A stretch of DNA of 64,000 bases, taken from assembly GCA_016806145.1 (NCBI GenBank), contig CP063166.1, positions 6,572,001 through 6,636,000 on the forward strand, given 5' to 3'. Positions 29,729 through 60,450 of the stretch are shown here, piece after piece. The notes under the pieces were generated by a model, which saw only the letters and a program-made list of their open reading frames with translations, was not told where the DNA came from and made no database searches. Numbering within the stretch: position 1 is the first letter of the stretch; every line of letters begins with the position of its first letter. The stretch comes from Variovorax paradoxus. GTDB lineage: Bacteria > Pseudomonadota > Gammaproteobacteria > Burkholderiales > Burkholderiaceae_C. The position numbers and the translations under genes were made by a program.

Positions 29729-32897
<3,169 letters not shown>

Positions 32898-33069
32898 GGG
32901 CAGGGAACTTTCGGGGGAGTTGGGTGGGTGGGACTCGGGAGAACCCGCGATTTTACCGGGCGAGCCCGAATCGGCACCGACAGCCTCTCTACACCCCTCT
33001 GCGCTTATTTTGCGCAGCCGGGCGGACCCGCGTTTTCCCTCATGAGCGATGTACTAAAGTCGCGGACAT

Positions 33070-34199: not shown

Positions 34200-34229
34200 C
34201 CAGCCCGTCTCAGAGGAAGTCTCCACGCG

Positions 34230-35627: not shown

Positions 35628-35642
35628 GCGCCGCGCGGCGGC

Positions 35643-41909: not shown

Positions 41910-41928
41910 GACTCGCTCCGCTCCGGCC

Positions 41929-44900
41929 TCAGTTCGCGACCACCTGGAAGCGCGCACCGGCCGAGCGCGCGTAGATGCGCCGGTCGTACATCGCCTCGCC
42001 GTAGGCCGCGGGCACCACGAAGTCGCCGACGTTGGTGGCGCGCGCCTTGTAGGTCACCTCGAGCAGGTTCTTGTCGACGCTGCCGTAGAACACCACGCGG
42101 TCCTCGCGGATGTCGGCGTACTGCACCTTCCACGAGCCGTTGCCGCCCAGGCGCTTCTTCCAGACCGGCGCGTCGGCGTTCTCGCCCTCGGCATCGTCGC
42201 CCACGGCCTGCAGCACGGGCTCGAGGCCGCCGGGCAGCAGGTCGACCAGCGCGACGTCGGCGATCTGCGGCCGCTCGAGGCTGCGCACGCGCACCCGCAC
42301 CGTGACTTCCTCGCCGAGCTTCGCCTTGGTGACCGGGTTGCCCTTGGCATCGAGCACCTCGTGGAACACCTCCAGCCCCTGGTTCACCGCGGTGTCGGGC
42401 TGCTTGCGTTCGAAGCCCTGCTCGGTCCAGCTGTAGTAGAGGTTGAAGTCGCTGTCGTTCGCGAGGCCCAGCTTCGCGGTGCCGGCGGGCACCGCGGCGC
42501 GCGCCACCGGGTTGACGGCGCCGAGCGCGAGCGCCGCGGCCTTGCCCTGCGCATCGATGGCCGAGGCCGTGAGCTTGCCCTCGGCGTTCTGCGCCACGGC
42601 GTCGAAGTAGGCATCGACCGCCATCAGCATCGCGGCCGACGACAGGCTGTTGTACCAGCCGTCGCGCACCATGCCGGCCATGCCTTCCCACACCGCGGGC
42701 TTCAGCGTCTTGAGCCGCGCGGGGAAGTGCCGGCCCACCAGGTGCAGCATCATGCTGTCGTGCACCAGCGGGTCGTAGTAGCGACCCCAGACGTTGCGGC
42801 GCTGGTTCTTCTCGCTGCGCGCGAGCAGGTCGGCCCACACGGGGTTGAGCAGCTCGTTGGCCACCTGCTCCTGCTTCACGAGCTGGTAGCTCGCCGCGAG
42901 GTAGACGGCGCCGAGGTCGTCGCTCCAGCCCGCGGTCTGCTTAACCTGCTGGTTGCGCCAGCTCTCGCGCAGGTTGGCCAGCGCGGCCGGCACCACGATG
43001 CCCTGGCGCGTCAGCAGGTAGGCCGCCTGCGTGCGCTGGCGCCAGCCGTCGAGCGACGAGTCGCCGCTGCCGAGCCAGCCTTGCAGGTAGGTGTTGGCGC
43101 GCTGCAGCAGGTCCTGCGGCACCGGCAGCTTGTGGTCGCGCGCCTCCACCAGCAGGTGCACCGCATAGAGCGTCGCGAACGGGTCGGCCCCCGCGCCGGG
43201 CCACAGCGAGAAGCCGCCGTCGGCCGTCTGGCGCGCGCGCAGCTGCACGAGGTAGCGCTCGAGCGTCTTGCGTGCCTCGGGCAGCGGGCCCTGGTCGGCC
43301 GCGCGGCCACGCGCCATCTCCTTCAGCAGCTCGGGCCGGCCCGCGAGCAGCACGGCCGGGAAGGTCTGGCTCGTGATCTGCTCGGTGCAGCCATGCGGAT
43401 AGGCCTCGAGGTATTGCATCAAGCCGGTGGCGAAGGCCCAGGGCGCGGCCGACACCGCGAGGTCGCTGCGGCGGAAATTCGGATAGAAGTCGCCCTTGCT
43501 CGCGATCTCGCCCGAGCGCTGGAAGCTGCCGGCCTGCACCAGCGAGACGAAGGGCGAGGCGGGCCGCACGCTCACCTCGGTGGCGAGCCGCGCGCTGAAG
43601 TTCTTGTGGGTGGAGGTGAACACCAGCGCCGACGAACCCAGCACCGCTTGCTCGCCGGGCTTGGCGCGCACGTTGAACTTCGTGCTGGCCTCGCCGCGCT
43701 CGTTGACCTTGAGTGTCTGCGTCGCGTCGCCGACCACCTCGAGCCCGCCCGAGGCGGTGAGCGTGAGCGCGATCGGCGCCTCCTTGCCCGAGCCCGCGAT
43801 GTTGTTGGCCAGGCCGACGCCGACCTCGACCGTGTCGCCGGGCGCCATCGCGAGCGGCGCATTCGGCAGGATCACCATGTCGCCACGCACCGTGGTGCGG
43901 GTGCTCTTCGCGGCCGTGGTCTCGTCGTTCACGGCCACCGCCATCACGCGCAGGCTGCCGTTGAAGCTCTCGGGCACGGTGTAGCTGAACTCGCGGCTGC
44001 CGTTCACGTCGACCAGGCCCGACCAGTAGGCCACCGGCTTGTCGCGCTTGCGCTTGAACGGGTTCAGGTGCTTGCCGAGCTCGCCTTCGCCGTCGCCGCC
44101 GGGCGCGGCGCCCTGCATCAGCTTCTTGAACTCGGGCAGGATCAGGTCGAGCGTCTGCAGGGTGCCGACCTCGAGCGCGCGCTTCTGGAAGAAGTGCTTG
44201 AGCGGGTCGGGCGTCTTGTAGCGCGCCACCTGCAGGATGCCCTCGTCGACCGCGAACACCACGGCACGCGTGGGCTGGTCGCTGGTGAGCTTCATCTTCA
44301 CGGTCTGGCCGGGCTTCACGAGCTCGGTGCTCGTGAGCTGCAGGTTGGCAGTGCGCTTCGACAGGCTGGTCGCGAAGGGCACGACGCCGTAGGACAGCGG
44401 GCTCATGTAGACCTCGTCCGAGGCCGGGTCGCGCACGAAGTGCACGTTGATGTAGCCGGTGCCCTCGAAGTCCTTGGGCAGCACGATCTTCTGCACCGAG
44501 GCGGTCTTGTCGGTCTTGAACCAGGCATGGGCGTAGACCTTGTCGCGCTCGATGGTGATGAGGCCCGCGCCGACGTAGGGCGCGCGGATGCTGACCTCGA
44601 TCTCCTGGCCCGGCTCGTAGTCCTTGCGATCGAGCGTGAGCTGCAGCTCGGCATTGCGGTCGAGCGAGCGGCTGACGTTGGCATTGCCCGCCACGCTGTA
44701 CTCGACGCGGTTGAGCTCGAGCCCGCCGGCATTGCGCACCACGTAGGCGAAGTTGCCGGGCGTGCCGGTGTCGAGCGCCACGTTGTTGCCGGCTGCGCCG
44801 ATGGCCAGCGGCTTCTCGTCGAGCACGATCTCCTTGCGGCGCGATTCGTAGCGGTACAGGCCGTTGTCCTGCTTGATCAGCACCGACAGCACCTTGCGCT

Positions 44901-47900
44901 CCACGCGCTGCAGCACCAGGTCGGCCACCGCGGTCTTCTTCGCCTGCGGGTCGATCGCGATCACGTGCGCGTTGCGCGCCGCGCCCTTGCTCACGTAGCC
45001 GGTGTCGCCGTCGACCTTGACGCCCACCAGGTAGGGCAGGTCGCTCACCAGCGTGCGCGCCTCGGCCGACACGCTGCGCCCGCCCTCGGGCTCGAAGGCC
45101 TTGGCCAGCACGTGCACCTGGTAGGTGGCGGAATCGAAGCGCGACAGCCGCAGGTCGAACTCGGCCTTGCCCTCGGCGCTGGTCTGCACGCTGCCGAGGT
45201 CGTCCACCTGCTTCTCGGCCGCGCGCTGCGGATCGAAGAAGGCGTAGTCGGCGAAGGCGCGGAACACCGGGAAGGCCGGGCTCAGCGTGAGCGTGCCCTC
45301 GACCTTGCGGTCGGGCGCGGGCGTGCCGAACAGGTTCTGCACGTCGATCAGCGCCTTCATGTCCTTCGGCTTGACCCAGCCTTCGGCGATCTCGCTGCTG
45401 AGCTTGGCCGTGACCTTGGTGCGGTCGGGCAGGAACTCCTGCACCTTCACCGTGGTGCTGCCCAGCAGCAGCCCCTGCACCTCGGGCGCGCCGGGCGAGG
45501 ACTCGCGCGGCAGGTAGAGGTTGACGGTGTAGTTGCCGGTGGGCGAGGTGTCCTGCGTGGCGTGCGCGATCTCGGCCGCGCCGCCGGGGCCGAGGCGCAG
45601 CTTCTCGCGCCGCACGCTCAGGCCGCGCGCATCGATGATCTCGGCTTCGAGCGGCAGGTCGCGCAGCGAGGTGCCCCAGTTGCCGGCCTTCACCATCATC
45701 GCGATGTGCATGGTGTCGCCCGGGCGGTAGATGCCGCGGTCGCTGAAGACGTAGGCCGTCATCTGGTTCGGCACGCCGGCCGCGCGCAGGCCGCCGACGT
45801 CGAAGCGCGAGATGTCGAGCGTGCGGTCGGTCTTGTTGAAGGGCAGGAAGCTCAGGTCGCCGTCCTTGCGCACCACCAGCACCACCGGCTGCTTCTCGCG
45901 CTGGAAGCCCGCGAGGTTGGGCAGCTTCGCGCGGCCCGTGGCATCGGTGGCCTGCGACGCCACGATCATGCCGTTGCGGCCCCACACCTCGACCAGCGCG
46001 CCGCCCACGGGCTGGCCATTGGCGATGCTCTGCACGAACACGTCGCGCATGCCGTCGAGCGACTTCTTGGCGACGATGCCCAGGTCGGTGACCAGCACCA
46101 GCCGCTCGTCCTTCTGGTCCTCGGGGTTGCCGCTCTCGGGATTGCCCTCGTCCCCGCCGGACGATTGCTGCTCCTCGTCCTCGGACGACGCCTCGGCGGC
46201 GTCCGCTTCGCCCTCGGGCTTCTTCTTCGCCTTGGGATCGAAGCCCTGCACCTTGAGCAGGAACACGCCGCGCCGGTCGCTGATGTCGCTGCGCAGGTAC
46301 TCGGCGAAATCGACCGTCTCGTAGTGCGCCTTGCCGGGCGGAATGGCCAGCGGGATCTGCTTCTCGAAGCGATCGACCAGGTTGTCGGTGCCGAGGCCGC
46401 CGTAGAACTTGGGATGCGAGAAATCGCCGTTGCTCTGCGTCACCAGGTGCTGCAGCTGCTGCGGCAGCAGGCGCCCGATCTCGACGCGCACGCCCGGCAG
46501 GTCGCGCACCAGGATCGGCAGCTTGCGCTCGCCCGACAGCGCGAGCAGCGAGCCCTGGCTCATGATCGTGAGCTCGGGCGCGAAGGTCTTGAGCAGCTGC
46601 ACGCTCTGGAAGGCCGTGCCGAGCTGGTAGCCGCCGGGCGTCTTCAGGCCCTTGGCCACGCGCACCAGCAGGTAGCGCCCGCCCTCGGCCTGCGGCAGGC
46701 GGAAGCTGACCGTCTCGGTCACCTCGCGCTCGCTGGCGATGGGCTGCAGGCCGATCTTCTTCGCGCGGCGCAGCACCGCGTCGGTGATCTTCGCGGGATC
46801 GGCGGACCAGTCGAACTTGTCTTCGGGATCGCCCTTGGGATCTTCGGTGGCCGGCAGCAGCCAGGCCTGCACCAGGCGCGCCATCTCGCGCTCGTGCACC
46901 GGCATCGAGGCGCTGACGTGCATCACGTGCTCGGGCTCGCCGTTCTCGCCGGTGACGATGGTGGGCTCGACGCTCGCGATGTCGAGGCTGAAGAGGCCGG
47001 GGATGTCGACCGCGCGCGAGACGTCGTTGCGCTGGCCCGGGCCACCCTTCTGCGCCACCGCGCCGGAAGTGAGGCTCAGCAGCACGGGGCGGGTCTTCTC
47101 GGGAATGGGCAGGGGCTCGGACTGGACCGTGGCCGTGAGGCGCAGCTTGTCGTAGCTGACCGTGAACTTCTCGCTCGCGCACTTGCCGACGCTGAAGAAC
47201 GAGCTGCTGCAGGCCTGGTCGTAGGTGAGCACCAGCCGCTTCTCGAACTCGGCGCTGTTCACGGGATGCGAGAAGCGCACCTGGAACAGCGCGCGCCGCA
47301 CGTTGGCCTGCACCGGGTCCTGGTAGAACTCGGCGCCGGCGATGCGGGCGCTGAACTCGGCCGAGCTGAATTCGTACTTGCGCTGCTCGATCTCGATGTG
47401 CGGCGCGAGCGCGTCCTTCGAGAGCTGCACCTTGTAGGCCTGGCCCACCGGCCAGTCCTGCGTGGGCACGAACTCCAGCTTCTTGGCATCGGTCCAGATC
47501 CAGCGCCCCGCGATGGCGGGCTCGATGCCGACACCAACCGCTTCCTGGCCGACACGCGCGATGGGCGCGACCGAGGCCGAGAAGTTGATCACGACCGGAT
47601 TGGGCCCCTTGTCGAGCTCGATCTGCGTGCGCGGCGGCGGCACGACCTGCGCGGTCGCCACGATGGGCTCGACGCGATCGGGCGTGAGGCCATGCCACCA
47701 CTTCAGGAGCTGCGGGCTGGCCATCCAGCCCGCGAACGCCAGCAACACCAGCAGCAGCACCCAGACGAGCCGCTGCTGCAGCCATTGCAGTCCCAGCAGC
47801 AGCAGCGCGCCCGCGATGCGCAGCCAGCCCGGGGGTCGCCAGGAACCGATGAGCCCGCGTGCGAGCGGGCGCAGGAAGCCGAGCGCGCGGCTCAGCCCGG

Positions 47901-47952
47901 TGAAGAGCACGTCGCTGAGCGACGCGAGTTTTCGATTGGCAACTTGAAGCAT
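41929..47952 (-). CDS. Bacterial alpha-2-macroglobulin (protease-trapping, thioester type)
   Basis: A very large periplasmic protein of 2007 residues, longer than E. coli YfhM (~1650). An N-terminal anchor helix (RLVWVLLLVLLAFAGWMASP, residues ~60-80) replaces the usual lipobox; there is no lipidation Cys. It has the MG-domain repeats, a bait-region-like acidic stretch with many Glu/Ser/Asp residues around residues 575-610, and the thioester HGCTEQ with Cys1522 and Gln1525. The thioester domain and a receptor-like C-terminal region follow. An attacking protease cleaves the bait and is trapped covalently. It is coupled to pbpC. The GGGGGAG upstream of the ATG is a strong ribosome-binding site. 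Confidence 0.94.
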   Translation of the reverse strand: MLQVANRKLASLSDVLFTGLSRALGFLRPLARGLIGSWRPPGWLRIAGALLLLGLQWLQQRLVWVLLLVLLAFAGWMASPQLLKWWHGLTPDRVEPIVATAQVVPPPRTQIELDKGPNPVVINFSASVAPIARVGQEAVGVGIEPAIAGRWIWTDAKKLEFVPTQDWPVGQAYKVQLSKDALAPHIEIEQRKYEFSSAEFSARIAGAEFYQDPVQANVRRALFQVRFSHPVNSAEFEKRLVLTYDQACSSSFFSVGKCASEKFTVSYDKLRLTATVQSEPLPIPEKTRPVLLSLTSGAVAQKGGPGQRNDVSRAVDIPGLFSLDIASVEPTIVTGENGEPEHVMHVSASMPVHEREMARLVQAWLLPATEDPKGDPEDKFDWSADPAKITDAVLRRAKKIGLQPIASEREVTETVSFRLPQAEGGRYLLVRVAKGLKTPGGYQLGTAFQSVQLLKTFAPELTIMSQGSLLALSGERKLPILVRDLPGVRVEIGRLLPQQLQHLVTQSNGDFSHPKFYGGLGTDNLVDRFEKQIPLAIPPGKAHYETVDFAEYLRSDISDRRGVFLLKVQGFDPKAKKKPEGEADAAEASSEDEEQQSSGGDEGNPESGNPEDQKDERLVLVTDLGIVAKKSLDGMRDVFVQSIANGQPVGGALVEVWGRNGMIVASQATDATGRAKLPNLAGFQREKQPVVLVVRKDGDLSFLPFNKTDRTLDISRFDVGGLRAAGVPNQMTAYVFSDRGIYRPGDTMHIAMMVKAGNWGTSLRDLPLEAEIIDARGLSVRREKLRLGPGGAAEIAHATQDTSPTGNYTVNLYLPRESSPGAPEVQGLLLGSTTVKVQEFLPDRTKVTAKLSSEIAEGWVKPKDMKALIDVQNLFGTPAPDRKVEGTLTLSPAFPVFRAFADYAFFDPQRAAEKQVDDLGSVQTSAEGKAEFDLRLSRFDSATYQVHVLAKAFEPEGGRSVSAEARTLVSDLPYLVGVKVDGDTGYVSKGAARNAHVIAIDPQAKKTAVADLVLQRVERKVLSVLIKQDNGLYRYESRRKEIVLDEKPLAIGAAGNNVALDTGTPGNFAYVVRNAGGLELNRVEYSVAGNANVSRSLDRNAELQLTLDRKDYEPGQEIEVSIRAPYVGAGLITIERDKVYAHAWFKTDKTASVQKIVLPKDFEGTGYINVHFVRDPASDEVYMSPLSYGVVPFATSLSKRTANLQLTSTELVKPGQTVKMKLTSDQPTRAVVFAVDEGILQVARYKTPDPLKHFFQKRALEVGTLQTLDLILPEFKKLMQGAAPGGDGEGELGKHLNPFKRKRDKPVAYWSGLVDVNGSREFSYTVPESFNGSLRVMAVAVNDETTAAKSTRTTVRGDMVILPNAPLAMAPGDTVEVGVGLANNIAGSGKEAPIALTLTASGGLEVVGDATQTLKVNERGEASTKFNVRAKPGEQAVLGSSALVFTSTHKNFSARLATEVSVRPASPFVSLVQAGSFQRSGEIASKGDFYPNFRRSDLAVSAAPWAFATGLMQYLEAYPHGCTEQITSQTFPAVLLAGRPELLKEMARGRAADQGPLPEARKTLERYLVQLRARQTADGGFSLWPGAGADPFATLYAVHLLVEARDHKLPVPQDLLQRANTYLQGWLGSGDSSLDGWRQRTQAAYLLTRQGIVVPAALANLRESWRNQQVKQTAGWSDDLGAVYLAASYQLVKQEQVANELLNPVWADLLARSEKNQRRNVWGRYYDPLVHDSMMLHLVGRHFPARLKTLKPAVWEGMAGMVRDGWYNSLSSAAMLMAVDAYFDAVAQNAEGKLTASAIDAQGKAAALALGAVNPVARAAVPAGTAKLGLANDSDFNLYYSWTEQGFERKQPDTAVNQGLEVFHEVLDAKGNPVTKAKLGEEVTVRVRVRSLERPQIADVALVDLLPGGLEPVLQAVGDDAEGENADAPVWKKRLGGNGSWKVQYADIREDRVVFYGSVDKNLLEVTYKARATNVGDFVVPAAYGEAMYDRRIYARSAGARFQVVAN

Positions 47953-48067: not shown

Positions 48068-48544
48068 TCAGGGCGAGAGCGCGGGCTTGTTCACCATGAG
48101 CCAGAAGACCAGGACCATGGCCACGAAGGCGGGATAGCCGAGCCACTCCCACCAGCGTTGGTGGCGCGCGTACAGCGGCGGCAGCGGCTGGCCGTCGCGG
48201 TGCGCCTGCCCGGCGATCGCGGCCATGCGGATCTGCAGCCACACCACGGGCAGCCAGCACGCGCCCGCGAACACGAAGAGGCCCAGCGACAACGCGAGCC
48301 ATGGCGTCGACAGCGGCCAGCCCGCCATGTGGGCGAGCGCGAAGCCGGTGGCCGGCTGCAGGATCACGGTGGGCGTGGTGAACCACCAGTCGGCGCGCAC
48401 CACCAGCCGGCTCACCACCGCCTGCGCCGCCACGCTGCCGCTGCGGTTGGCGAAGAACATGTAGAAGGCCGATCCCAGCCCGGTGCCGACCATCAGCACG
48501 CTCGAGACGATGTGCAGCCACTTGAGGACCAGGTAGCTGTTCAT
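48068..48544 (-). CDS. DUF2269 family membrane protein
   Basis: A 158-residue inner-membrane protein with four helices; it starts MNSYLVLKWLHIVSSVLMVG, which has a His in the first helix as in other DUF2269 proteins. A second conserved His lies in GFALAHMAGW. DUF2269 proteins are predicted heme- or quinone-associated membrane proteins of unknown role. The ATG overlaps the DoxX stop by 4 bases. It is the last gene of the minus-strand block; 115 bases with no gene lie between it and the alpha-2-macroglobulin start. Confidence 0.83.
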   Translation of the reverse strand: MNSYLVLKWLHIVSSVLMVGTGLGSAFYMFFANRSGSVAAQAVVSRLVVRADWWFTTPTVILQPATGFALAHMAGWPLSTPWLALSLGLFVFAGACWLPVVWLQIRMAAIAGQAHRDGQPLPPLYARHQRWWEWLGYPAFVAMVLVFWLMVNKPALSP

Positions 48545-48918
48545 GGCACGGCGCGCCGGTACAGGTGCCACAGCAGCGCGGCGATCGGCAGGTTCTTGAG
48601 CAGCGGCCCCAGCGGATGCAGCCACAGCGCCGGCTGCAGGCCGGTGGCGACCGCCGTCATGAGCAACAGCAGGCCGAGCGCCGCGAGGTAGCTGGCGCGG
48701 CCCGGCCGCCACCACAGCGCGAGGCCGACGACGAGGTCGGCCGCCGCGCCACCGACGATCAGCAGTTGCACCAGCCAGGGCGGCGAGGCGATACCGGCCT
48801 CGGCCAGCACCCGGCGGCTCTGGCCGTCGAGTTCGACGATGCTGACGACGGCCGTGACCAGCCAGACCGCGACGAGGCTCAGGCGCAGCAGGCGGTCGTC
48901 GTCGGCCCCCTGCCTCAT
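48541..48918 (-). CDS. DoxX-like membrane protein
   Basis: A 125-residue protein with four hydrophobic helices: LRLSLVAVWLVTAVVSIVEL, LVQLLIVGGAAADLVVGLAL, YLAALGLLLLMTAVATGL and a final LKNLPIAALLWHLYRR. The pattern fits DoxX-like proteins, which act in membrane redox or quinone processes. Function here is unknown. Both start and stop overlap neighbours by 4 bases, so it is translated with the SRPBCC and DUF2269 genes. Confidence 0.78.
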   Translation of the reverse strand: MRQGADDDRLLRLSLVAVWLVTAVVSIVELDGQSRRVLAEAGIASPPWLVQLLIVGGAAADLVVGLALWWRPGRASYLAALGLLLLMTAVATGLQPALWLHPLGPLLKNLPIAALLWHLYRRAVP

Positions 48919-49421
48919 GCCCGCGCGCTCCCGTGCTGCGTGCGCTGCCAGTCGACGACTTCCTGCGCATGGACCGCCAGGAACGCATGCATGCGCGCAA
49001 AGCGCCGCCGGGTCTGCCGCGCGAAGGCCCGGGCGACGATCGGTTGCAGCAACCAGCGCAGGGCCCTCGGCCCCGCCTCGATGGTGTAGGTGTAGATCAG
49101 CACGGAGCGGCCGGGCTCGGTGTCGCGGTGCCGCATGGACGCGGCCCAGCGATCGAACGGGAAGGAACGGCCGATCATCGAGGCGGCGGCCAGGTGCGGA
49201 CGGTCGAAGCTCACGAAGCGGGTTCGCATCGACAGCCCGCGCAGCCAGCCATGGCCCACGTTCTCGGTCTCGGCGCCGACGAAGGGGCACGGCGCGCCGC
49301 CCACCACCCGGGCATCGCCGACCAGCGAGTCCCAGCGCGCGCGCCACACGTGGTAGTGGAAGGTGTCGAAGACCACGTCGGCCGGCGCCGGCATGTCGAA
49401 CTCAAGCCGCTCGTGCGCCAT
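48915..49421 (-). CDS. SRPBCC-fold protein
   Basis: A 168-residue soluble protein of the START/SRPBCC lipid- or ligand-binding fold. It starts MAHERLEFDMPAPADVVFDTF, where the PAPADVVFD element opens many SRPBCC domains; ALIYTYTIEAGPRALRWLLQ-like strands and a final long helix follow. Such proteins bind hydrophobic ligands in a cavity. It overlaps the saccharopine-dehydrogenase-like gene upstream by 20 bases and DoxX by 4, so it is part of the coupled unit. Confidence 0.75.
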   Translation of the reverse strand: MAHERLEFDMPAPADVVFDTFHYHVWRARWDSLVGDARVVGGAPCPFVGAETENVGHGWLRGLSMRTRFVSFDRPHLAAASMIGRSFPFDRWAASMRHRDTEPGRSVLIYTYTIEAGPRALRWLLQPIVARAFARQTRRRFARMHAFLAVHAQEVVDWQRTQHGSARA

Positions 49422-50520
49422 CGTCGACCACGTCCGTCACCATGCCCCAGCGCGCGAACTCGGGCTCGAACTCCCGCAGCGCGAGCAGCCCCATGCAGGC
49501 CTGCGCGCCCATCGGCAGCGCATCGCCGCGCGCGAGCCGGCGCGCCAGCAGGATGGCGGCCATGCAGGGAATCTCCGGCCCATGGTTGTCGTCGGCCGCG
49601 ATGTGCCAGGCGCGGTGCGCGGCGGCGCCTCGTGCGTCGATGCCTTCGACGCGCACCACCATGCCGCCGAGCGCGCTGCCGAACGCATCGAACAGGCCGC
49701 CCGTGGCATGCAGCAGCCGCGCCAGCTTCTGCGGCGCGGGCAGCAGGCCGATGCGGCGCAGGGCCGCCAGGAAGGCGAAGGCCTGCTGCGTGAGGCCGAC
49801 CTCGAACGCGGCGCGGAACATCACCGACTGCACGCCCGGATGGCGCGCCGGGAAGAGTTCGAGATCGGGGATGTCGCACAGCGCGCCGCGGCGCGGGCGC
49901 ATGCGCGCGAAGCGCACGGGCGAGGGTCTGGCCCAGCCGGGCTGCTCGGTCCAGCGGCCTTGCTGCCAGACGCGGATCGGCGCGCCGCAGTAGGCGAGCA
50001 CGCCCGCGAGCGTGGCCTCGCCGCGCGGCGCGCCCTGGGCCGGCGCGATGCAGATGTCGATGCCGCGGATGCCCTGCCAACCGGCCGCGAGCTGGTCGAC
50101 CACGGCCGAGGAAAGCGCCGGCACGGTGCTCGCGCCGGTGACGGCCGTGCGGCCCGCGCCGCGAAAGACGCCGTCGAGCGCCGCGGGAAAGTCGCAGACG
50201 AAGCGGCGGCCGTCGGCCAGGTCGATGTAGTGCGCGCCGGCGGCGGCCACCGCCCGCGGCACGCGGTAGTCCTGGTTCTGGAACGGACCGGCCGTGTGGA
50301 TGACGAGCTCGACGCCGAGCTCGCGCAAGCCCCGCGCGAAATCCTGCGACTGCGCATCGACGCGGACGGCGCGCGCCCCGTCCGCCAACGATTGCACGAA
50401 GGCCGTGGCCCGTTCGAGATCGCGCCCGCCCACCAGCAGCTCGATGGCGTCATCGGTGGCCAGCGCGCGGCTGATGCGCGCGCCGAAGTTGCCGTAGCCG
50501 CCGAGCACCAGCGTCTTCAT
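49402..50520 (-). CDS. Saccharopine-dehydrogenase-family NADP-binding protein
   Basis: A 372-residue oxidoreductase-like protein. A Rossmann motif opens the chain (KTLVLGGYGNFGARISRAL), then ELLVGGRDLERATAFVQSLA and VELVIHTAGPFQNQDYRVPR. The family contains saccharopine reductases, carboxynorspermidine synthases and lipid-modifying reductases. A link to polyamines is tempting because a spermidine-synthase-like gene lies two genes upstream, but the sequence does not decide it. It overlaps the FAD protein gene upstream by 4 bases. Confidence 0.8.
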   Translation of the reverse strand: MKTLVLGGYGNFGARISRALATDDAIELLVGGRDLERATAFVQSLADGARAVRVDAQSQDFARGLRELGVELVIHTAGPFQNQDYRVPRAVAAAGAHYIDLADGRRFVCDFPAALDGVFRGAGRTAVTGASTVPALSSAVVDQLAAGWQGIRGIDICIAPAQGAPRGEATLAGVLAYCGAPIRVWQQGRWTEQPGWARPSPVRFARMRPRRGALCDIPDLELFPARHPGVQSVMFRAAFEVGLTQQAFAFLAALRRIGLLPAPQKLARLLHATGGLFDAFGSALGGMVVRVEGIDARGAAAHRAWHIAADDNHGPEIPCMAAILLARRLARGDALPMGAQACMGLLALREFEPEFARWGMVTDVVDDGARAA

Positions 50521-52154
50521 GCCAGGCTCGCTCCGGCCACGTGCCCGCGCGTGAAGGCTTCCTCGAAGATCGAATAGCCCGACCAGTCGGCATGCGCGAA
50601 CGACAGCCGGCCCGCGATCACGCTGCCGCGGTGCGCATCGTCGGGCGCGGTGCGCTGCGAACCGATCTGCGCCAGCAGGCCGGGCCGCGGAATGGCCATG
50701 GCGTGCCCGTAGCGCGTGATCTCGATGCGCGTGGCCAGCGCGGGCAGGTCGGGGTGCGGCACCGAGAGCTCGGCCAGCAAGTCGTCGCGCCAGCCGGTCC
50801 AGGGCCGCTCGAGCAGCAGGCGGCGGCCGTCGCCCTCGTCGTAGCGGCTCGGGCCCAGCGGGCGATACCAGCTCAGCACGGTGCCGCGCGGCGTGGGGTC
50901 GAGCGTCTGGTGGCGCGCATCGACATAGCCGAGGCCGCGCGTGCCGTAGACCACGTTGTCCCAGCTCGGCGCGGCGCCGGGGCGGTCGACCAGCGGGCCG
51001 CGCAGGTGCACGTTGGCCACCAGCCAGGGCGCATGGCGCACGTGCGCGGCGGCATGCGCGAGCACCGCGGGCGCGTTCTCGACCACGCGCGCGGCGACGA
51101 ACACCGGCAGCGCGACGATGCAATGCGCGGCCTGCCAGCGCACCAGCGATTGCGAGGCGGCATCCCAGGCATCGACCTCGACGCCGCCGCGCAGCTCGGC
51201 GATGCGCACGACCACCTGGCCCGTGCGCAGCCGTTCGCCCAATGGCTTGGCCAGCTGCTTCGTGAGCCAGCCGTTGCCCTCGGGCCAGGTCAGCACGCCG
51301 TCGCGCTCGGGGTTGGTGTCGTTGGCGCTGCCCGACGGATCGCCGGGCGCGTGAAAGCCGTGTCGGCTCGCGAAATAGTGGATGCCGGCCCAGGCCGAGA
51401 CCTGCTCGATGCCCGCGCCGTAGTCGTCGCGGCAGCAGTAGTCGAGGTACCAGCGCAGGTGCTCGTCGCTGAAGCCCTCGCGGTCGAGCCAGGCCGAGAA
51501 GGCCTGCGCATCGAGCGCCAGCAGCTCGGGCGTGACCGCGACCTTGAGCGTGGGAATGGCGAAGTGGGCCGCATGCTGGAGCGCGTCGATGCGCTGCGCG
51601 AAGCGGCGGTACTGCGCCTGCGTGTCGGCGCCCACGCCATGCACCGGCAGCAGGCCGTCCTGCCACTCGCCGTGGAAGAACAGCCGCTCCTGCGGGCTGT
51701 GGCACAGCGTGCGCTCGTCGTATTCCCAGCGGCCGGCCACGCGCCGGCGCAGGCCGAGTTCTTCGAGCAGGTCCTGCACCTCGCGCGCATCGTCGCCGGG
51801 CACCGGCAGGTAGTGCGCGCCGAGCGGGCAGGCGATGCCGTTGACCATGCCGCCGCGCGCATTGCCGCCCGCGCTGTCCTCGAGCTCGAGCAGCGCGAAG
51901 TCGTCGATGCCCGCGAGCCGCAGCGCACGCGCCGCAGCGAGCCCCGCGACGCCACCACCGGCGATCAGCACGCGGGTCTTGCGGGTGCTCGCGGGCGCGC
52001 GCGACTTCAGCGTGCCGTCGCGCATCGCGTGGCCGCGCGCCATGTCGATGCCGGTGAAGCCGCCTTCGATGGGTGGCGGCGCATCGCAGCCGGCGAGCGC
52101 GAGCGCACCGGCGGCGCCGACCGTGCCGAGGAAGCTGCGTCGCCTCATGCCCAT
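50517..52154 (-). CDS. Exported FAD-dependent amine-oxidase-like protein (Tat lipoprotein)
   Basis: A 545-residue flavoprotein. The N-terminus MGMRRRSFLGTVGAAGALAL has a twin-arginine motif, and the next residues form a lipobox (ALAGC), so it is folded, exported and lipid-anchored. A Rossmann FAD motif, RVLIAGGGVAGLAAARALRL, and the NAD_binding_8/amine-oxidase GGNARGG follow. The substrate is unknown: phytoene desaturase-like, amine oxidase or protoporphyrinogen-like reactions are possible. It is downstream of the spermidine synthase gene with a 179-base gap that looks like an intergenic repeat. A GAGG lies 10 bases before the ATG at 52154. Confidence 0.83.
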   Translation of the reverse strand: MGMRRRSFLGTVGAAGALALAGCDAPPPIEGGFTGIDMARGHAMRDGTLKSRAPASTRKTRVLIAGGGVAGLAAARALRLAGIDDFALLELEDSAGGNARGGMVNGIACPLGAHYLPVPGDDAREVQDLLEELGLRRRVAGRWEYDERTLCHSPQERLFFHGEWQDGLLPVHGVGADTQAQYRRFAQRIDALQHAAHFAIPTLKVAVTPELLALDAQAFSAWLDREGFSDEHLRWYLDYCCRDDYGAGIEQVSAWAGIHYFASRHGFHAPGDPSGSANDTNPERDGVLTWPEGNGWLTKQLAKPLGERLRTGQVVVRIAELRGGVEVDAWDAASQSLVRWQAAHCIVALPVFVAARVVENAPAVLAHAAAHVRHAPWLVANVHLRGPLVDRPGAAPSWDNVVYGTRGLGYVDARHQTLDPTPRGTVLSWYRPLGPSRYDEGDGRRLLLERPWTGWRDDLLAELSVPHPDLPALATRIEITRYGHAMAIPRPGLLAQIGSQRTAPDDAHRGSVIAGRLSFAHADWSGYSIFEEAFTRGHVAGASLA

Positions 52155-52333
52155 GTCGCCATCACCTCGCCGAGGCAACGAACTGAGCCCGACCTGCGGT
52201 CTGCCAAGGGACCGCGTAGCGCGGCCTGTTCGGGAGACACCGTGGAACCGGCTTTGCCGGGCCACGGGTGTCGCCCCCGGTGAGGGGGTTGGCGAAGCGG
52301 CACGCAGTGCCGCGCAGCCTGGGGGAGGACCAT
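52155..52333. repeat. Intergenic repeat-like element
   Basis: A 179-base gap between two minus-strand genes, rich in small inverted repeats: GCGGCAC-GCA-GTGCCGC is perfect, and CCGCGTAGCGCGG and GGAACCGGCTTTGCCGG-like pairs are partial. Its pattern and composition resemble dispersed intergenic repeats of Comamonadaceae, an impression from memory. No second copy was seen in this window. It would interrupt the otherwise coupled block. Confidence 0.42.
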
Positions 52334-53899
52334 TTAATGTGCCATGACCTTGCCCCACTCCTGCTCGTAGGTGGTGACGAGGACCTGGTTGGAGAGCCGG
52401 TTGACCTCGGCCGGCACGCGCGCCATGTCGAGCGGGAAGTCGAACATCAGCGGCAGCGTGGGCGCGGACAGGAAGCGCAGGCCCGCGGGCAGCGCGTCGG
52501 GCTTTCGGTAGGGCCGGTGGCTCGCGATGATGAAGCCCCATTCGCCGAAGCTCGGCACGTGCACGTGATAGGGCGTCGCGGTCAGGCCCACCGACTCCAC
52601 CGTCTGCGCCACGGTCCAGAAGCTCTTGCGCGCCACCAGCGGCGAGGTGGTCTGGATCACCGCGTAGCCGCTGGCCGCGAGGCGCTTGTCGAGCAGCGCG
52701 TAGAAGCTGTTGGTGTAGAGCTTGCCGATCGCGAAGTTGGTGGGATCGGGAAAGTCGACCACGATCACGTCGAACAGGTCGTCGTCACTGCGCTGCTGCA
52801 GCCACTGGAAAGCATCGGTGTTGACGATCTTGAGCTTCGGCGACGACAGCGAATGGCCGTTGAGCGCGGCCAGCGTCTCGTGGTCGGTGAACAGCTTCGT
52901 CATGTTCGGATCGAGCTCGACCAGCGTGACCGACTCCACCGACGGGTACTTGAGCACCTCGCGCACCGCCATGCCGTCGCCGCCGCCGAGCACCGCCACC
53001 TTCTTGGGCGCGCCGTGGGCGGCCATCACGGGATGCACCAGCGCCTCGTGGTAGCGGTACTCGTCGCGCTCGGCGAACTGCAGGTTGCCGTTGAGGAACA
53101 GCCGGTGCCCGAGCAGCCCGCGCGTGACCACGATGCGCTGGTAGGGCGAGGTGGCGCTGAAGACGATGCGGTCCTGGTAGAACTTGTCCTCGGCCAGCGT
53201 GGTGATGTGGTCGGCGCCGATGAAGCCGCCGAGCAGCGCCGCCAGCGACAGGAAGCAGGCCAGCGCATGCGCGCCGACGCGCCGCAGCTCGTGGCGGAAC
53301 AGCCAGAGCGCCCACACCGCCACCGCCGCGTTCATGAAGCCGAACAGCAGGCCGGTGCGGATCATGCCGAGCTGCGGCACCAGGATCAGCGGGAAGGCCA
53401 CCGACACCGCAAGCGCGCCGAGGTAGTCGAAGGTCAGCACCTGCGACACCAGGTTCTTGAGCGCCACGTTGCGCCGCAGGATGCGCATCACCAGCGGGAT
53501 CTCGAGCCCGACCAGCGTGCCGACCACGACCACCAGCCCGTACAGCAGCAGCCGGAACGCGCCCGGCGCGTAGGCATTGGCCAGGAACAGCACCGCCGGC
53601 AGCGCGCCGCCGATCAGCGCCACCATCAGCTCGATGCGCAGGAAGTGGGCCGGCAGCTGGCGGTCGAAATAGCGCGACAGCCACGAGCCCACGCCCATCG
53701 CGAACAGGTAGGTGCCGATGATGGTGCTGAACTGCAGCACCGAGTCGCCCAGCAGGTAGGAGCTGAGCGCCGCCGCGCTGAGTTCGTAGACCAGCCCGCA
53801 GGCGGCCACCACGAAGACGCTGGCGAGCAGCGCGATCTCGACGGGCTGCGGCCCGCGCGCATCGGCCGGGCGCGCGGACGGGGCCTGCTCCGCGCTCAA
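52334..53899 (-). CDS. Membrane-embedded spermidine synthase (aminopropyltransferase) homologue
   Basis: A 521-residue fusion of a membrane domain with an aminopropyltransferase. Seven hydrophobic helices occupy residues ~15-230 (for example IALLASVFVVAACGLVYELS and LLLYGLVVVVGTLVGLEIP). The C-terminal SpeE fold has VAVLGGGDGMAVREVLKYP and the catalytic VDFPDPTN. It should transfer an aminopropyl group from decarboxylated S-adenosylmethionine to an amine at the membrane face. The TTG start at 53899 overlaps the DUF350 TGA (TTGA), a coupling that decides the start; upstream in-frame residues are low-complexity Arg. The donor could come from SpeD (33070). Confidence 0.87.
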   Translation of the reverse strand: MSAEQAPSARPADARGPQPVEIALLASVFVVAACGLVYELSAAALSSYLLGDSVLQFSTIIGTYLFAMGVGSWLSRYFDRQLPAHFLRIELMVALIGGALPAVLFLANAYAPGAFRLLLYGLVVVVGTLVGLEIPLVMRILRRNVALKNLVSQVLTFDYLGALAVSVAFPLILVPQLGMIRTGLLFGFMNAAVAVWALWLFRHELRRVGAHALACFLSLAALLGGFIGADHITTLAEDKFYQDRIVFSATSPYQRIVVTRGLLGHRLFLNGNLQFAERDEYRYHEALVHPVMAAHGAPKKVAVLGGGDGMAVREVLKYPSVESVTLVELDPNMTKLFTDHETLAALNGHSLSSPKLKIVNTDAFQWLQQRSDDDLFDVIVVDFPDPTNFAIGKLYTNSFYALLDKRLAASGYAVIQTTSPLVARKSFWTVAQTVESVGLTATPYHVHVPSFGEWGFIIASHRPYRKPDALPAGLRFLSAPTLPLMFDFPLDMARVPAEVNRLSNQVLVTTYEQEWGKVMAH

Positions 53900-54114
53900 T
53901 GGATGGCGGCGGCGACGATGATGCTGATGCCCAGGCTCATCGCGGCGACGACCAGGCCCAGCGCCACGTTCTGCTTCTCGACGATCTCGCCCCACAGGTC
54001 ATAGGGCGTGATCTTGTCGATGATCAGGAAGCAGAGCCAGAAGATCACCACGCCGATCAGCGCGTACACGAGCGATCCGAGGACCACGCCAGGTTTCAGC
54101 CATTCAAATCCCAT
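53896..54114 (-). CDS. DUF350 family membrane protein
   Basis: A 72-residue protein with two hydrophobic helices: GSLVYALIGVVIFWLCFLII, then NVALGLVVAAMSLGISIIVA. The DUF350 motif YDLWGEIVEKQNVALG joins them. E. coli YjfL is a family member in a phage-shock-like operon. It has a strong GGAGG ribosome-binding site and is coupled to the membrane spermidine synthase. Single-unit copies such as this could form a homo-oligomer in the inner membrane. Confidence 0.85.
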   Translation of the reverse strand: MGFEWLKPGVVLGSLVYALIGVVIFWLCFLIIDKITPYDLWGEIVEKQNVALGLVVAAMSLGISIIVAAAIH

Positions 54115-54177
54115 GGGGACCTCCAGTCGTATCTGTATCTATCAGTCGATGAATCGAAAGCGGCAGCGCGATCTTCG

Positions 54178-55671
54178 TCATTTGTGGCCGCCGCCGCTCG
54201 AGGAGCCGCCGTAGGAGCCGCCCGAGCTGCGGTAGCCGCCGCCCGAACCGCCGCCGCTGCTGCTGCAGGTGCTCAGGATGATGACCAGCACGATGATCAC
54301 GATGGCGATCACGATCATGGTGCCGCAGCCCAGCCCCGAAGCCGCGCTGACCGGCAGTGCGTCGGAGCGCTCGAACAGGTCCTTCTTGGCATCGAGCTTG
54401 AAGGCCGTGGCGACCGCGCCGCTGTCGATCTTGCTGCCCGAGGACCAGGTGAGCTCGTTGGCCGAGCGCTCCATCGACAGCAGGGCGCCGCCGGACGCGA
54501 AGTCGCGGTTGAAGGTCTTCTGCCCGCGCTCGACCTGCCAGTAGAACTCGCCGGCCACGTAGGTGGTCTCGGCGTTGTAGGCGTACTGCTGCTGGTAGCG
54601 CTTGCCGAGGTAGGTGGCGGTGCTGCCGTTCTCGGCCATCACCGGCGCGCCGGTGGTGGGGCGCACCATGCTCCAGCCGTCCTCGGCATCGACCAGGAAG
54701 CTGAAGCCGCGCTTCTTGTTGTAGAGCAGGTATTCGTCCCAGCCGAACTGCTCGTCGTCGCCGGGCTCGCTGCCCATGCGGTGCTGGAAACCCACCACCT
54801 GCCACTGCACGCCCTGCAGCTGGCCCATGCTGCCCAGCGCGATCAGCGGGCGCACCGGCTCGTTCTGCGCCGCATGCTTGAGCTCGCCGCCGATGCCCTG
54901 CGACAGGTCGATGATGCTGTTGCACGAACGGCAGGTGACGCTCTTGCTGTCGGCCAGGTTGAGCGTGACCGGCGAGCCGCAGTTGGGACAGTTGAAGCTG
55001 CGGCCCTTCTCGTCCTTGGCGGAGTCCTCGCGCAGGCCCGTGAGCTGCAGCGATTCGAGTTCGACCGAGCGGCCCAGCGCGGCCGTGGGCGGCTGCGAGC
55101 CGTAGTCCAGGCTCAGCACCAGGCCCTTGTCGTTGCGCAGCTCGACCACCTGGAACGGCCGGCCGAGCTCGGGCAGGTGCGGCAGTTCGCCCTGCGCCGA
55201 GACCAGCGTCACTTCCTCGTTCGAGGCGACGGTGTAGCTCTGGCCGTTGAAGGCGGTGGTGGCGCCCACGCGCAGGTCGGCCGCGGCCGGCGGCGTGCGC
55301 TGCAGTTCGAACGGCAGCGAGAAGACGTAGGCGCCGTTGTCCTCGCTGAGCACGCCGGTGCGGTCGCCGTCGAGGGCCGCGATCCATTCGGTCCAGCGGC
55401 CGCCGGCGTACTTGTATTGAAGCCGGCCGACGATGGTGAAGGGCTTGTCCTGGATCCGGCCCGCGGCGAACAGCTGCAGCGGGCTGAAGTCGTCGAACAG
55501 CTCGGCCATCTTGCCGGTGCGCGCGAGCGTGTCGCCCTGGCGCACGACGGTGCTCTGGCAGTAGGGGCAGACCGCATGGGTCGACTGGGCCGATCGGAAC
55601 TCGACCGGCGCGCCGCAACCGGGGCAGGGCGCGCGGTAGTAGCGCTGGGTGCCGCCGGCTTCCTCAGCCAT
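54178..55671 (-). CDS. DUF4178 protein with two zinc ribbons and a C-terminal anchor
   Basis: A 497-residue protein. Two zinc ribbons, CPGC/CPYC near residues 15-40 and CPNC/CRSC near 228-250, separate two DUF4178 beta domains (with RWTEWIAALDGDRTGVLSED and GWDEYLLYNKKRGFSFLVDA). A single membrane helix (MIVIAIVIIVLVIILSTC) and a Gly/Ser-rich tail end the protein, so the large part faces the cytoplasm. DUF4178 proteins keep company with SPFH, DUF350 and SpeE-like genes, as here. The start is MAEEAGG at 55671; an ATG three codons earlier is possible. Function is unknown. Confidence 0.84.
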   Translation of the reverse strand: MAEEAGGTQRYYRAPCPGCGAPVEFRSAQSTHAVCPYCQSTVVRQGDTLARTGKMAELFDDFSPLQLFAAGRIQDKPFTIVGRLQYKYAGGRWTEWIAALDGDRTGVLSEDNGAYVFSLPFELQRTPPAAADLRVGATTAFNGQSYTVASNEEVTLVSAQGELPHLPELGRPFQVVELRNDKGLVLSLDYGSQPPTAALGRSVELESLQLTGLREDSAKDEKGRSFNCPNCGSPVTLNLADSKSVTCRSCNSIIDLSQGIGGELKHAAQNEPVRPLIALGSMGQLQGVQWQVVGFQHRMGSEPGDDEQFGWDEYLLYNKKRGFSFLVDAEDGWSMVRPTTGAPVMAENGSTATYLGKRYQQQYAYNAETTYVAGEFYWQVERGQKTFNRDFASGGALLSMERSANELTWSSGSKIDSGAVATAFKLDAKKDLFERSDALPVSAASGLGCGTMIVIAIVIIVLVIILSTCSSSGGGSGGGYRSSGGSYGGSSSGGGHK

Positions 55672-55727
55672 GGCGCGCACGCGCGGACGCGAGGCCCGCG
55701 GCGTTCTTCCAGCCGATCATGCCTCTC

Positions 55728-55746
55728 ACGCCCGTCGAGCGGGCGT
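55728..55746 (-). terminator. Hairpin between the SPFH and DUF4178 genes
   Basis: A 7-base-arm stem, ACGCCCG-N5-CGGGCGT, lies 29 bases after the SPFH stop in the 103-base gap. It has no T run, so it may be a processing or attenuation site rather than a full terminator. Confidence 0.4.
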
Positions 55747-55774
55747 CAGGCGCTGTACAGAACATGGCGCCGGG

Positions 55775-56824
55775 TCAGACCAGCTTCTTGAGCAGTTCGG
55801 CCTTCTTGGCGTCGAACTCTTCCTGGGTCAGGATGCCCTTGGTCTTGAGTTCGCCGAGCTTCTCGAGCGTGGTCATCACGTCGTTGGGGTTCACCACCGC
55901 CACCGCCGGCTGCTGCTGGGTCGCGGCCGCCTGGGCCGCCGCGTTCGGGCTCAGGCCCTGCGCGAGGTTCTGCGCCAGCACCTGGCCGAGCGCCACGCCG
56001 GCGCCCAGGCCCATCGCGTCCCCCGCGATGCCGCCGCCGTTGGCGGCACCCTCGGCGAACTTGGGGATCGCCTGCGCCGTCTGGTACTGCATGAACTTGC
56101 CCATGTCGTTGCCGACCATGCCCATGCCGATCTTCTGGTCGAGGATCTTCTGCAGTTCCTCGGGCAGCGAGACGTTCTGGACCGTGATGTTCTCGAGCTT
56201 GATGCCGATCTTGGCGAACTCGGGCACCAGCTGGGCCGCCAGCGCCTGCGCGAATTGGATCTGGTTGGCCGCGAGGTCGAGGAAGGGCACGCCGCTGGAA
56301 GCGATGGCGTTGCTGATGTTCTGCAGCACCAGGCCGCGCAGCTGGCCGTCGAGGTCGGCCACGGTGTAGATGTCGCGCGTGCCCGAGATCTCGGTGTGGA
56401 ACAGCTTGGCGTCGCCGATGCGGAACGAGTAGTTGCCGAAGGCGCGCAGGCGCACGGCGCCGAAGTCCTTGTCGCGGATGGTGATGGGCTGCGGCGTGCC
56501 CCACTTCTGGTCGACCTGCTGGCGCGTGCTGAAGAAGTAGACGTCGCTCTTGAACGGGGACTCGAAGAGCTTGTCCCAGTTCTTCAGGTAGGTCAGCACC
56601 GGCAGCGTCTGCGTGGTGAGCTTGTACATGCCGGGGCCGAACACGTCGGCCACCTGGCCTTCGTTGACGAACACCGCGATCTGCGACTCGCGCACCGTCA
56701 GCGAGGCGCCGTTCTGGATTTCCATCTCCGCCATCGGGAAGCGCCAGGCCAGCGTGCCGTCGCCGGACTCGGTCCACTGGATGATGTCGATGAACTGTTT
56801 CTTGATGAAATCCATCAGGGCCAT
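55775..56824 (-). CDS. SPFH/band-7 protein with C-terminal SHOCT (YdjI-like)
   Basis: A 349-residue protein starting MALMDFIKKQFIDIIQWTES. The SPFH domain (~20-230) includes SQIAVFVNEGQVADVFGPGM, ITIRDKDFGAVRLRAFGNYS and the AQALAAQLVPEFAKIGIKLE strand; a Gly/Ala-rich linker (GAGVALGQVLAQNLAQGLSP) and a short SHOCT helix pair (LGELKTKGILTQEEFDAKK) follow. There is no membrane helix, so it probably docks on a partner. In B. subtilis the YdjI homologue is recruited to the membrane by zinc-ribbon/TM proteins YdjG/YdjH during envelope stress. It heads the block and is divergent from maeB. Confidence 0.87.
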   Translation of the reverse strand: MALMDFIKKQFIDIIQWTESGDGTLAWRFPMAEMEIQNGASLTVRESQIAVFVNEGQVADVFGPGMYKLTTQTLPVLTYLKNWDKLFESPFKSDVYFFSTRQQVDQKWGTPQPITIRDKDFGAVRLRAFGNYSFRIGDAKLFHTEISGTRDIYTVADLDGQLRGLVLQNISNAIASSGVPFLDLAANQIQFAQALAAQLVPEFAKIGIKLENITVQNVSLPEELQKILDQKIGMGMVGNDMGKFMQYQTAQAIPKFAEGAANGGGIAGDAMGLGAGVALGQVLAQNLAQGLSPNAAAQAAATQQQPAVAVVNPNDVMTTLEKLGELKTKGILTQEEFDAKKAELLKKLV

Positions 56825-59548: not shown

Positions 59549-59971
59549 ATGGCGATGGCGTCTTGCGCCTCGATCACGTCCTCTGTCGCTAAGTTTGCGC
59601 TCACCGGCTTCATGCTGGCGGCGCTGGCGACGACGGGGGCCGAGGCCCGCGGATGGTTCGGCGCCGGGAATTCCACCGCCCAGGAAACGATTGCGCTGGC
59701 CGAGCTGCCGGCGCAAGGCCAGCGTACCTACGAAGCCATCCTGAACGGCGGCCCCTTCCGGTACGACAAGGACGGCTCGGTGTTCGGCAATCGCGAACGG
59801 CTCCTGCCCCCGGCCCGGCGCGGCCACTATCGCGAGTACACGGTGACCACGCCCGGATCGCGCGATCGCGGCGCCCGGCGCATCGTCTGCGGCGGCGAGA
59901 AGCGCACGGCACCCGAGGCCTGCTGGTACACGGCGGACCATTACGCGAGTTTCAGGCGGATCACGCCATGA
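59549..59971 (+). CDS. Secreted guanyl-specific ribonuclease (RNase Sa/barnase family)
   Basis: An exported 140-residue ribonuclease. A signal peptide (FALTGFMLAALATTG, cleaved near AEA-RG) precedes the mature enzyme. The active site of the microbial N1/T1 fold is complete: Glu96 in YREYTVTTPG, Arg in GARRIV and His131 in TADHYASF, in the same order as RNase Sa (EYTV, TRRI, DHYATF) and barnase. Cys114 and Cys125 could form a disulfide. It cuts RNA after guanine. I chose the ATG at 59549; a TTG at 59534 and an ATG at 59555 are alternatives. Its stop overlaps the barstar start. Confidence 0.86.
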   Translation: MAMASCASITSSVAKFALTGFMLAALATTGAEARGWFGAGNSTAQETIALAELPAQGQRTYEAILNGGPFRYDKDGSVFGNRERLLPPARRGHYREYTVTTPGSRDRGARRIVCGGEKRTAPEACWYTADHYASFRRITP

Positions 59972-60450
59972 GCGGCGACGACAACGACTTGAGCGGCGCA
60001 CCGAAGCGCCCCGAAGAAATGATGATGACTATGGAAAGACCAGCGGAGATGACTTTATCCCTTCGTGGCGTACGCCCGAACATCGTGCAATCGATTCGCG
60101 CGTTCCGCGTGAGCGACCTGCAGGACGCCGCCAACGCAGCGGGCCAGCACTTCCTGTACGCCAACCTGGGCAACGCGCAGACCAAGCAGGACGTGCTCGA
60201 CCTGATCGCCCAGCAGTTCACCTTTCCGGCGCACTTCGGCAAGAACTTCGACGCGCTGTACGACTGCATGACCGACCCGTTGCATAAATCGGGCCCGCAG
60301 CCCGGTTTCGTGATCGTTCTCGAACAGATCCCGGCCAACGGCAAGTTCGACAAGGAAGCGCGCGAGCAGCTGCTCGACATCTTCCGCGACGCGTCGGACT
60401 ACTGGGGCGACCGCAAGGTGCCCTTCCGGTGCTTCTATTCTTTTCTGTAG
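59968..60450 (+). CDS. Barstar family ribonuclease inhibitor
   Basis: The cytoplasmic inhibitor paired with the RNase. It is 160 residues long, against ~90 for barstar. The barstar domain is the C-terminal ~110 residues and has the conserved HFGKNFDALYDCMTDPL helix that plugs the nuclease active site. The N-terminal ~50 residues are extra and include MMMTMERPAEM, so a shorter start is possible. ATGA overlap with the RNase gene means the inhibitor is made as the toxin is made. It protects the cell before the nuclease is exported. Confidence 0.87.
   Translation: MSGDDNDLSGAPKRPEEMMMTMERPAEMTLSLRGVRPNIVQSIRAFRVSDLQDAANAAGQHFLYANLGNAQTKQDVLDLIAQQFTFPAHFGKNFDALYDCMTDPLHKSGPQPGFVIVLEQIPANGKFDKEAREQLLDIFRDASDYWGDRKVPFRCFYSFL

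Follow-up and report, generated by a model that had tools for sequence, protein, structure and literature searches.

Among described systems, the closest to the locus analysed here are found in those passages of Ravi et al. 2024 (PMC11237479) that deal with PspA operons. There a PspA-CesT operon is described with a 7TM SpeE, a YjfL/DUF350 protein, a DUF4178 protein and a lipoprotein, and the authors propose that the PspA-type relatives monitor polyamines or the aminopropylation of other substrates. In a variant described in the same passages a band-7/2TM/SHOCT protein replaces the PspA dyad and occurs together with AdoMet decarboxylase (AdoMetDC) and a polyamine oxidase. This kind of operon is already known, the PspA form and the band-7/SHOCT replacement both being published (PMC11237479).

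The locus of Variovorax paradoxus shares with the CesT/Tir-PspA operon of that paper the membrane SpeE, DUF350 and DUF4178, as well as AdoMetDC in many genomes. Unlike that operon, it possesses an SPFH-SHOCT protein in place of PspA and CesT, a short DUF350 protein, a doubled DUF4178 with zinc ribbons and an exported FAD enzyme. Of the features that mark the second group in these passages, the membrane-fused SpeE, DUF350 and DUF4178 are present here and the CesT/Tir-PspA dyad is not; because PspA is absent, we file the locus as a variant, not a member, of the CesT/Tir-PspA group. The published band-7/2TM/SHOCT variant resembles it in having band-7/SHOCT for PspA, AdoMetDC and an amine-oxidase-like enzyme. 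That variant is, however, introduced with an ATP-grasp (glutathionylspermidine-synthetase-like) group in passages that do not name DUF4178, and its band-7 protein has 2TM, whereas no hydrophobic segment appeared in a hydropathy scan of the Variovorax SPFH protein. Compared by description, the two may be the same system.

Two more distant systems deserve comparison. The Pseudomonas aeruginosa genes PA4773-PA4774 (speD2-speE2), associated with pmrAB, likewise combine a class 1b-type speD with a second, envelope-linked SpeE, but there PA4774 encodes a 349-aa thermospermine synthase, and DUF350, DUF4178 and SPFH are not mentioned in the relevant part of PMC11107197. Bacillus subtilis ydjFGHI is similar in being a membrane operon that encodes both a band-7 and a zinc-ribbon protein; it differs in having PspA and a TPM-domain protein, and the passage of PMC11237479 devoted to it, where the band-7 protein is written YdjL, mentions no aminopropyltransferase. 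In the open-licence literature, the supplementary tables of PMC11237479 excepted, we found no description of SPFH, DUF4178, DUF350 and membrane SpeE as a set. New here is the description of the SPFH form as five conserved core genes together with speD, and of the mutual exclusion of the two scaffolds with one switch between them; the changed SpeE residues, the export signal on the FAD protein and the recognition of four genes of the block as passengers are also new.

The gene block and its conserved core

The window, i.e., the whole stretch of 64,000 nucleotides that was analysed, corresponds to contig positions 6572001-6636000 in a genome of 9.44 Mb and 3 contigs. The earlier note had described a block of nine minus-strand genes at 48068..56824, and in a profile search all nine ORFs proved genuine, each matching a Pfam family above its cut-off. 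These genes and speD, in window positions, are as follows.

55775..56824, minus strand: SPFH (Band_7_1) protein with C-terminal SHOCT, 349 aa; Band_7_1 261.6 bits, SHOCT 34.8 bits
54178..55671, minus strand: DUF4178 protein, 497 aa; DUF4178 112.6 bits
53896..54114, minus strand: short DUF350 protein, 72 aa, two TM segments; 55.0 bits
52334..53899, minus strand: membrane SpeE, 521 aa, TTG start; Spermine_synth 126.9 bits, family NF002956 683 bits
50517..52154, minus strand: FAD enzyme with Tat-type signal and lipobox Cys23, 545 aa; Amino_oxidase 66.0 bits
49402..50520, minus strand: SAC (Sacchrp_dh_NADP) protein, accessory; 33.2 bits
48915..49421, minus strand: Polyketide_cyc2/SRPBCC protein, accessory; 29.8 bits (cut-off 27.4)
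48541..48918, minus strand: DoxX_3 protein, accessory; 71.1 bits
48068..48544, minus strand: DUF2269 protein, accessory; 209.7 bits
33070..33456, plus strand: speD, AdoMet decarboxylase (PF02675), adjoining a transketolase gene

The four 4-base overlaps that had been reported are indeed present: DUF350/SpeE at 53896-53899, provided that SpeE starts at the TTG at 53899, FAD/SAC at 50517-50520, SRPBCC/DoxX at 48915-48918 and DoxX/DUF2269 at 48541-48544. The SAC/SRPBCC overlap is 20 bases long (49402-49421), and gaps of 103, 63 and 179 bases separate SPFH from DUF4178, DUF4178 from DUF350 and SpeE from the FAD gene, respectively. No promoter-like site above chance was detected in the window, and co-transcription of SpeE and the FAD gene across their 179-base gap is at most putative.

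The conserved core consists of five genes, SPFH-DUF4178-DUF350-membrane SpeE-FAD, and the last four genes of the block are lineage-specific. Among the named loci (the best 80 of 589 confirmed, biased to close relatives, of which the 60 with at least 20 kb were counted) SpeE was present in 60, the FAD enzyme in 58, DUF4178 in 57, DUF350 in 56 and SPFH in 52, with SpeD inside the locus in 23. SAC, DoxX and DUF2269 were each found in five of these 60 loci and SRPBCC in one, all of them from Variovorax, and these counts do not support the proposal that the nine genes form one unit. The neighbour set is nevertheless kept beyond close relatives, as had been anticipated, in the form of the five-gene core conserved across many genera: while the six top-ranked named loci are from Variovorax, with 89-92% SpeE identity, others come from Acidovorax, Comamonas, Rubrivivax, Rhizobacter, Roseateles and a MAG labelled Acidobacteria, in which the genes for SPFH, SpeD, DUF4178, DUF350 and SpeE are consecutive (locus L185).

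Within the genus, DUF4178 is present in 16 of the 18 relatives sampled, and 13 of these 16 were examined as long regions. The order SPFH-DUF4178-DUF350-SpeE-FAD is retained in all 13, with SAC, DoxX and DUF2269 in five and SRPBCC in two; where a relative lacks those four additional genes, the next one after FAD, among the genes searched, is a phytase-like gene or speD. The iterated HMMs for FAD, SAC and DoxX caught spurious overlapping ORFs, and their counts were not used. The idea that the neighbourhood is due to chance or to a common transcript only, the nine genes sharing no function, does hold for the four downstream genes with their five occurrences in 60 loci. As an account of the locus it is barely credible, the core being kept in order across many genera and also, with another gene orientation, in one family, and for the five-gene core it is ruled out by the co-conservation.

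Directly after the DUF2269 gene, on the minus strand at 39576-47952, lie genes for a bacterial alpha-2-macroglobulin (2007 aa) and then a PbpC-type penicillin-binding protein. This pair usually accompanies the four accessory genes in Variovorax, although in one relative (G006) the accessory genes are present and the pair is lacking from the region covered. On the other side of the block (59653-60450, plus strand) lies a gene for a protein of 265 aa that ends in a barstar domain; it follows a gene for a fusion of malic enzyme and phosphotransacetylase and is conserved in the genus relatives.

The DUF4178 protein comprises two DUF4178 domains, one C-terminal TM segment and a Gly/Ser tail, and contains two zinc-ribbon-like CxxC stretches that score below threshold; no clear fold match was obtained for it. 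A C-terminal TM segment is also found in 69 of 70 named relatives of at least 430 aa.

Exchange of SPFH and PspA beside membrane SpeE

Membrane SpeE (NF002956 above cut-off) occurs in 39 of 349 Pseudomonadota genomes. SPFH, up to 12 kb away from SpeE, is the neighbour in nine of them (the source genome G000, G254, G236, G104, G284, G275, G323, G252 and G054), PspA, up to 6 kb away, in 17, both in none and neither in 13, an exclusion with a Fisher p of 0.0025 that ignores shared ancestry. Locus L108 was not used. The 39 region loci represent 38 genomes, and because some of the loci are whole short contigs (L062, L072, L078 and L097) the class with neither neighbour partly reflects contig ends. 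The exclusion operates at the level of the locus and not of the genome, PspA being found elsewhere in G252, G054 and G225 and Band_7_1 elsewhere in G040. In 16 of the 17 PspA loci a CesT_Tir_1 or DUF2170 neighbour stands beside PspA (assigned by cluster, with one representative of each scanned). In a quick SpeE tree, drawn after ten near-duplicate Variovorax rows had been dropped and flagged for long branches (L092), one change separates 14 SPFH rows from 17 PspA rows, a figure that excludes 14 rows of neither type.

PspA had been said to be missing from the block, and this is correct genome-wide, no PspA match being found anywhere in the source genome; it was likewise absent near SpeE in all 60 named loci. 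The suggested link to PspA-type systems also stands, as PspA occupies the SPFH position in other clades, much of which is already contained in the PspA passages of PMC11237479. Taken as a whole, the earlier interpretation is partly supported: it stood in its core co-conservation, in the exported nature of the FAD protein, as judged from its signal, and in the PspA link, but found no support as to the nine-gene unit. Its platform of SPFH, DUF4178 and DUF350 that would recruit SpeE, and its modification of a surface amine or lipid, are hypothetical.

DUF4178 is present in 23 of the 349 genomes (22 above cut-off), all of which are among the 39 with membrane SpeE. In 12 of the remaining 16 a cluster c5 protein is encoded, and the checked member of this cluster matches DUF4178 below threshold (18.2 bits). 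DUF350 proteins of the short cluster (about 72 aa) occur in eight loci, none of the PspA type, and those of the long cluster (about 299 aa) in 20 loci, none of the SPFH type, with intermediate DUF350 ORFs in L066 and L073. In one family (f61, five genomes) two separate DUF4178 genes accompany DUF350 and SpeE, and the Band_7_1 gene lies elsewhere. In the PspA-type loci L070, L071, L084, L085, L086 and L089 we also noticed a neighbour (cluster c16), one member of which carries a TVGYGD potassium-channel signature, recognised by eye.

speD, membrane SpeE and the FAD enzyme

SpeE requires decarboxylated AdoMet. The speD gene was omitted from the earlier note, as was the published operon family, though it sits in the same window and is the sole PF02675 match genome-wide. 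Its distance to the nine-gene block is 14.6 kb, and 17 kb separate it from the five-gene core. Its product scores 86.3 bits to PF02675 (cut-off 25), can be aligned to 2iii and carries the motif ESH...HTWPE...C, which we take to surround the self-cleaving Ser. Its substrate identity is predicted, because some SpeD relatives decarboxylate ornithine or arginine, as described in part of PMC10407285.

Of 31 genomes, one and the same set of 19 carries AdoMet_dc, DUF4178 and a Spermine_synth match of >100 bits; in the Variovorax relative G003 (99% complete) AdoMet_dc and DUF4178 are both missing and the Spermine_synth match reaches just 29 bits. Across the Pseudomonadota set AdoMet_dc was found in 29 of the 39 membrane-SpeE genomes versus 56 of the 310 others, in statistics that ignore shared ancestry. 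Seven of the ten exceptions carry the eukaryotic-class PF01536 enzyme, which leaves three of the 39 (G199, 71% complete, G067 and G087) with no AdoMetDC by either PF02675 or PF01536. SpeD lies within the examined region of 15 of the 39 loci, and some of the counted AdoMetDC may serve a soluble SpeE, which one of them adjoins in G112, G225 and G341.

As to its own surroundings, speD is divergent from the transketolase gene, the two together spanning 30795-33456, and of the 14 examined loci of relatives in which speD is present, 13 have the two genes side by side. Long ORFs are present on both strands beside it at 33500-36000, and the four that were checked gave no Pfam match. In L076, L095, L096 and L097 speD is adjoined by a gene of cluster c21, the checked member of which is an M50B-like membrane peptidase.

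The membrane SpeE is the single Spermine_synth match in the source genome, its enzyme domain being fused to an N-terminal membrane domain (NF002956, 683 bits). Seven helices had been claimed for the latter, but a simple hydropathy scan gives six clear segments ahead of the enzyme domain; seven TM is the figure published for its relatives in the PspA passages of PMC11237479.

We compared 55 membrane SpeE sequences (14 of them Variovorax rows) with ten soluble SpeE picked by hand from the match list. Residues D382, D385, G305, G307, D308, G309, D330, D362, Q416, Y283 and H284 are invariant in all 55, and PSFGEWG is invariant in a set of ten proteins. Other positions are altered: F451 and P384 in 55/55 membrane forms correspond to Y and T in 10/10 soluble ones, N270 (48/55) to D in 10/10, and A423 (54/55) and T418 (49/55) both differ from soluble SpeE. 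These five positions presumably lie on the acceptor side, as in known SpdSyn structures. Because the catalytic set is invariant and the acceptor-side residues are changed, the membrane SpeE should be an active aminopropyltransferase whose acceptor may not be putrescine.

It is quite improbable that the SpeE domain serves instead as a sensor of decarboxylated AdoMet or polyamine, controlling a channel or transporter formed by the membrane half within an envelope stress system. The term '7TM transporter-like' applied to the N-terminal half in the passages of PMC11237479, a weak MFS_SpdSyn match (44 bits, cut-off 40) and the tie of the sister systems to PspA would all agree with such a role, but the full catalytic set in 55/55 sequences would be needless for a mere sensor, and the co-occurrence of AdoMetDC with membrane SpeE also speaks against it.

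The FAD enzyme appears to be a lipoprotein that is exported through the Tat pathway and adopts the monoamine-oxidase fold. The prediction of an exported FAD oxidoreductase is supported by a conserved Tat/lipobox-like signal, the Tat RR being present in 32 and Cys23 in all of 33 sequences under loose RR and lipobox patterns. The family match is to Amino_oxidase, with a fold shared by putrescine oxidase, MAO, spermidine dehydrogenase and others. Asn381 (32/33) falls opposite a Lys of putrescine oxidase, which we assume to be the active-site Lys near flavin N5, in an alignment that is itself sub-threshold (-3.2 bits). Among the 39 membrane-SpeE loci the FAD enzyme was seen in just nine, and since it is missing from most of them it is dispensable for the wider SpeE family.

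A proposed aminopropyl transfer at the membrane

The five-gene membrane set and the nearby speD probably serve to modify a membrane-located amine with the help of decarboxylated AdoMet. Our best reading, which we judge about equally apt to prove right or wrong, is that an aminopropyl group is transferred at the membrane and that this step is coupled to the oxidation of an amine in the periplasm. SpeD would supply decarboxylated AdoMet, and the membrane-anchored SpeE, with the topology that we infer for it, would transfer the aminopropyl group to an amine at the membrane on its cytoplasmic side; the acceptor-side changes suggest an amine other than plain putrescine. The constant partners in the membrane would be DUF350 and the DUF4178 protein with its tail anchor, and SPFH-SHOCT would form a submembrane scaffold of the complex in place of PspA and the CesT-like partner of the sister systems. 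The exported FAD lipoprotein would act at the periplasmic face on an amine, perhaps the product of SpeE, and the whole set would have a role in the envelope. Against this reading count the Variovorax relative G003, which lives without SpeE, SpeD and DUF4178, the three SpeE genomes of 39 without AdoMetDC, the presence of the FAD enzyme in only nine of 39 loci and the 179-base gap between SpeE and the FAD gene.

It is possible, if rather doubtful, that SpeD and membrane SpeE are the ordinary spermidine pathway of this lineage placed at the membrane, with the FAD enzyme degrading exported spermidine. The catalytic and donor-site residues of SpeE are invariant, the FAD fold is common to putrescine oxidase and spermidine dehydrogenase, and nspC gave no match in the source genome or in the ten other Variovorax genomes tested, so that the one Spermine_synth and one AdoMet_dc would, by these models, constitute the sole route. 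The acceptor-side residues, however, are unlike those of soluble SpeE in every member, and soluble spermidine synthesis needs no fixed DUF350, DUF4178 or scaffold partners. Li et al. 2019 (cited in PMC11237479) reportedly found that AdoMetDC next to a membrane-fused SpdSyn has a role independent of polyamines, which also counts against it. Plain spermidine synthesis is kept in consideration because the nearby genus Caenimonas contains spermidine, given as 5% in the relevant part of PMC9628874.

A more far-reaching form of the membrane aminopropylation reading, unlikely in our estimate, is that SpeE aminopropylates a non-polyamine membrane constituent, such as a lipid head group or an amine of a membrane protein, that the periplasmic FAD lipoprotein oxidises the group so added, and that a single enzyme core can use either SPFH or PspA as its scaffold. 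If this were true, aminopropylation followed by FAD-dependent oxidation would be a previously unknown modification of the envelope. 

The locus offers a natural swap, in that a core of membrane SpeE, DUF350 and DUF4178 is accompanied by PspA in some clades and by SPFH-SHOCT in another, and the roles of PspA and of band-7 proteins for membrane enzymes thereby become testable. It also draws attention to a large family of aminopropyltransferases for which putrescine should not be taken for granted as the acceptor but an assay is called for.
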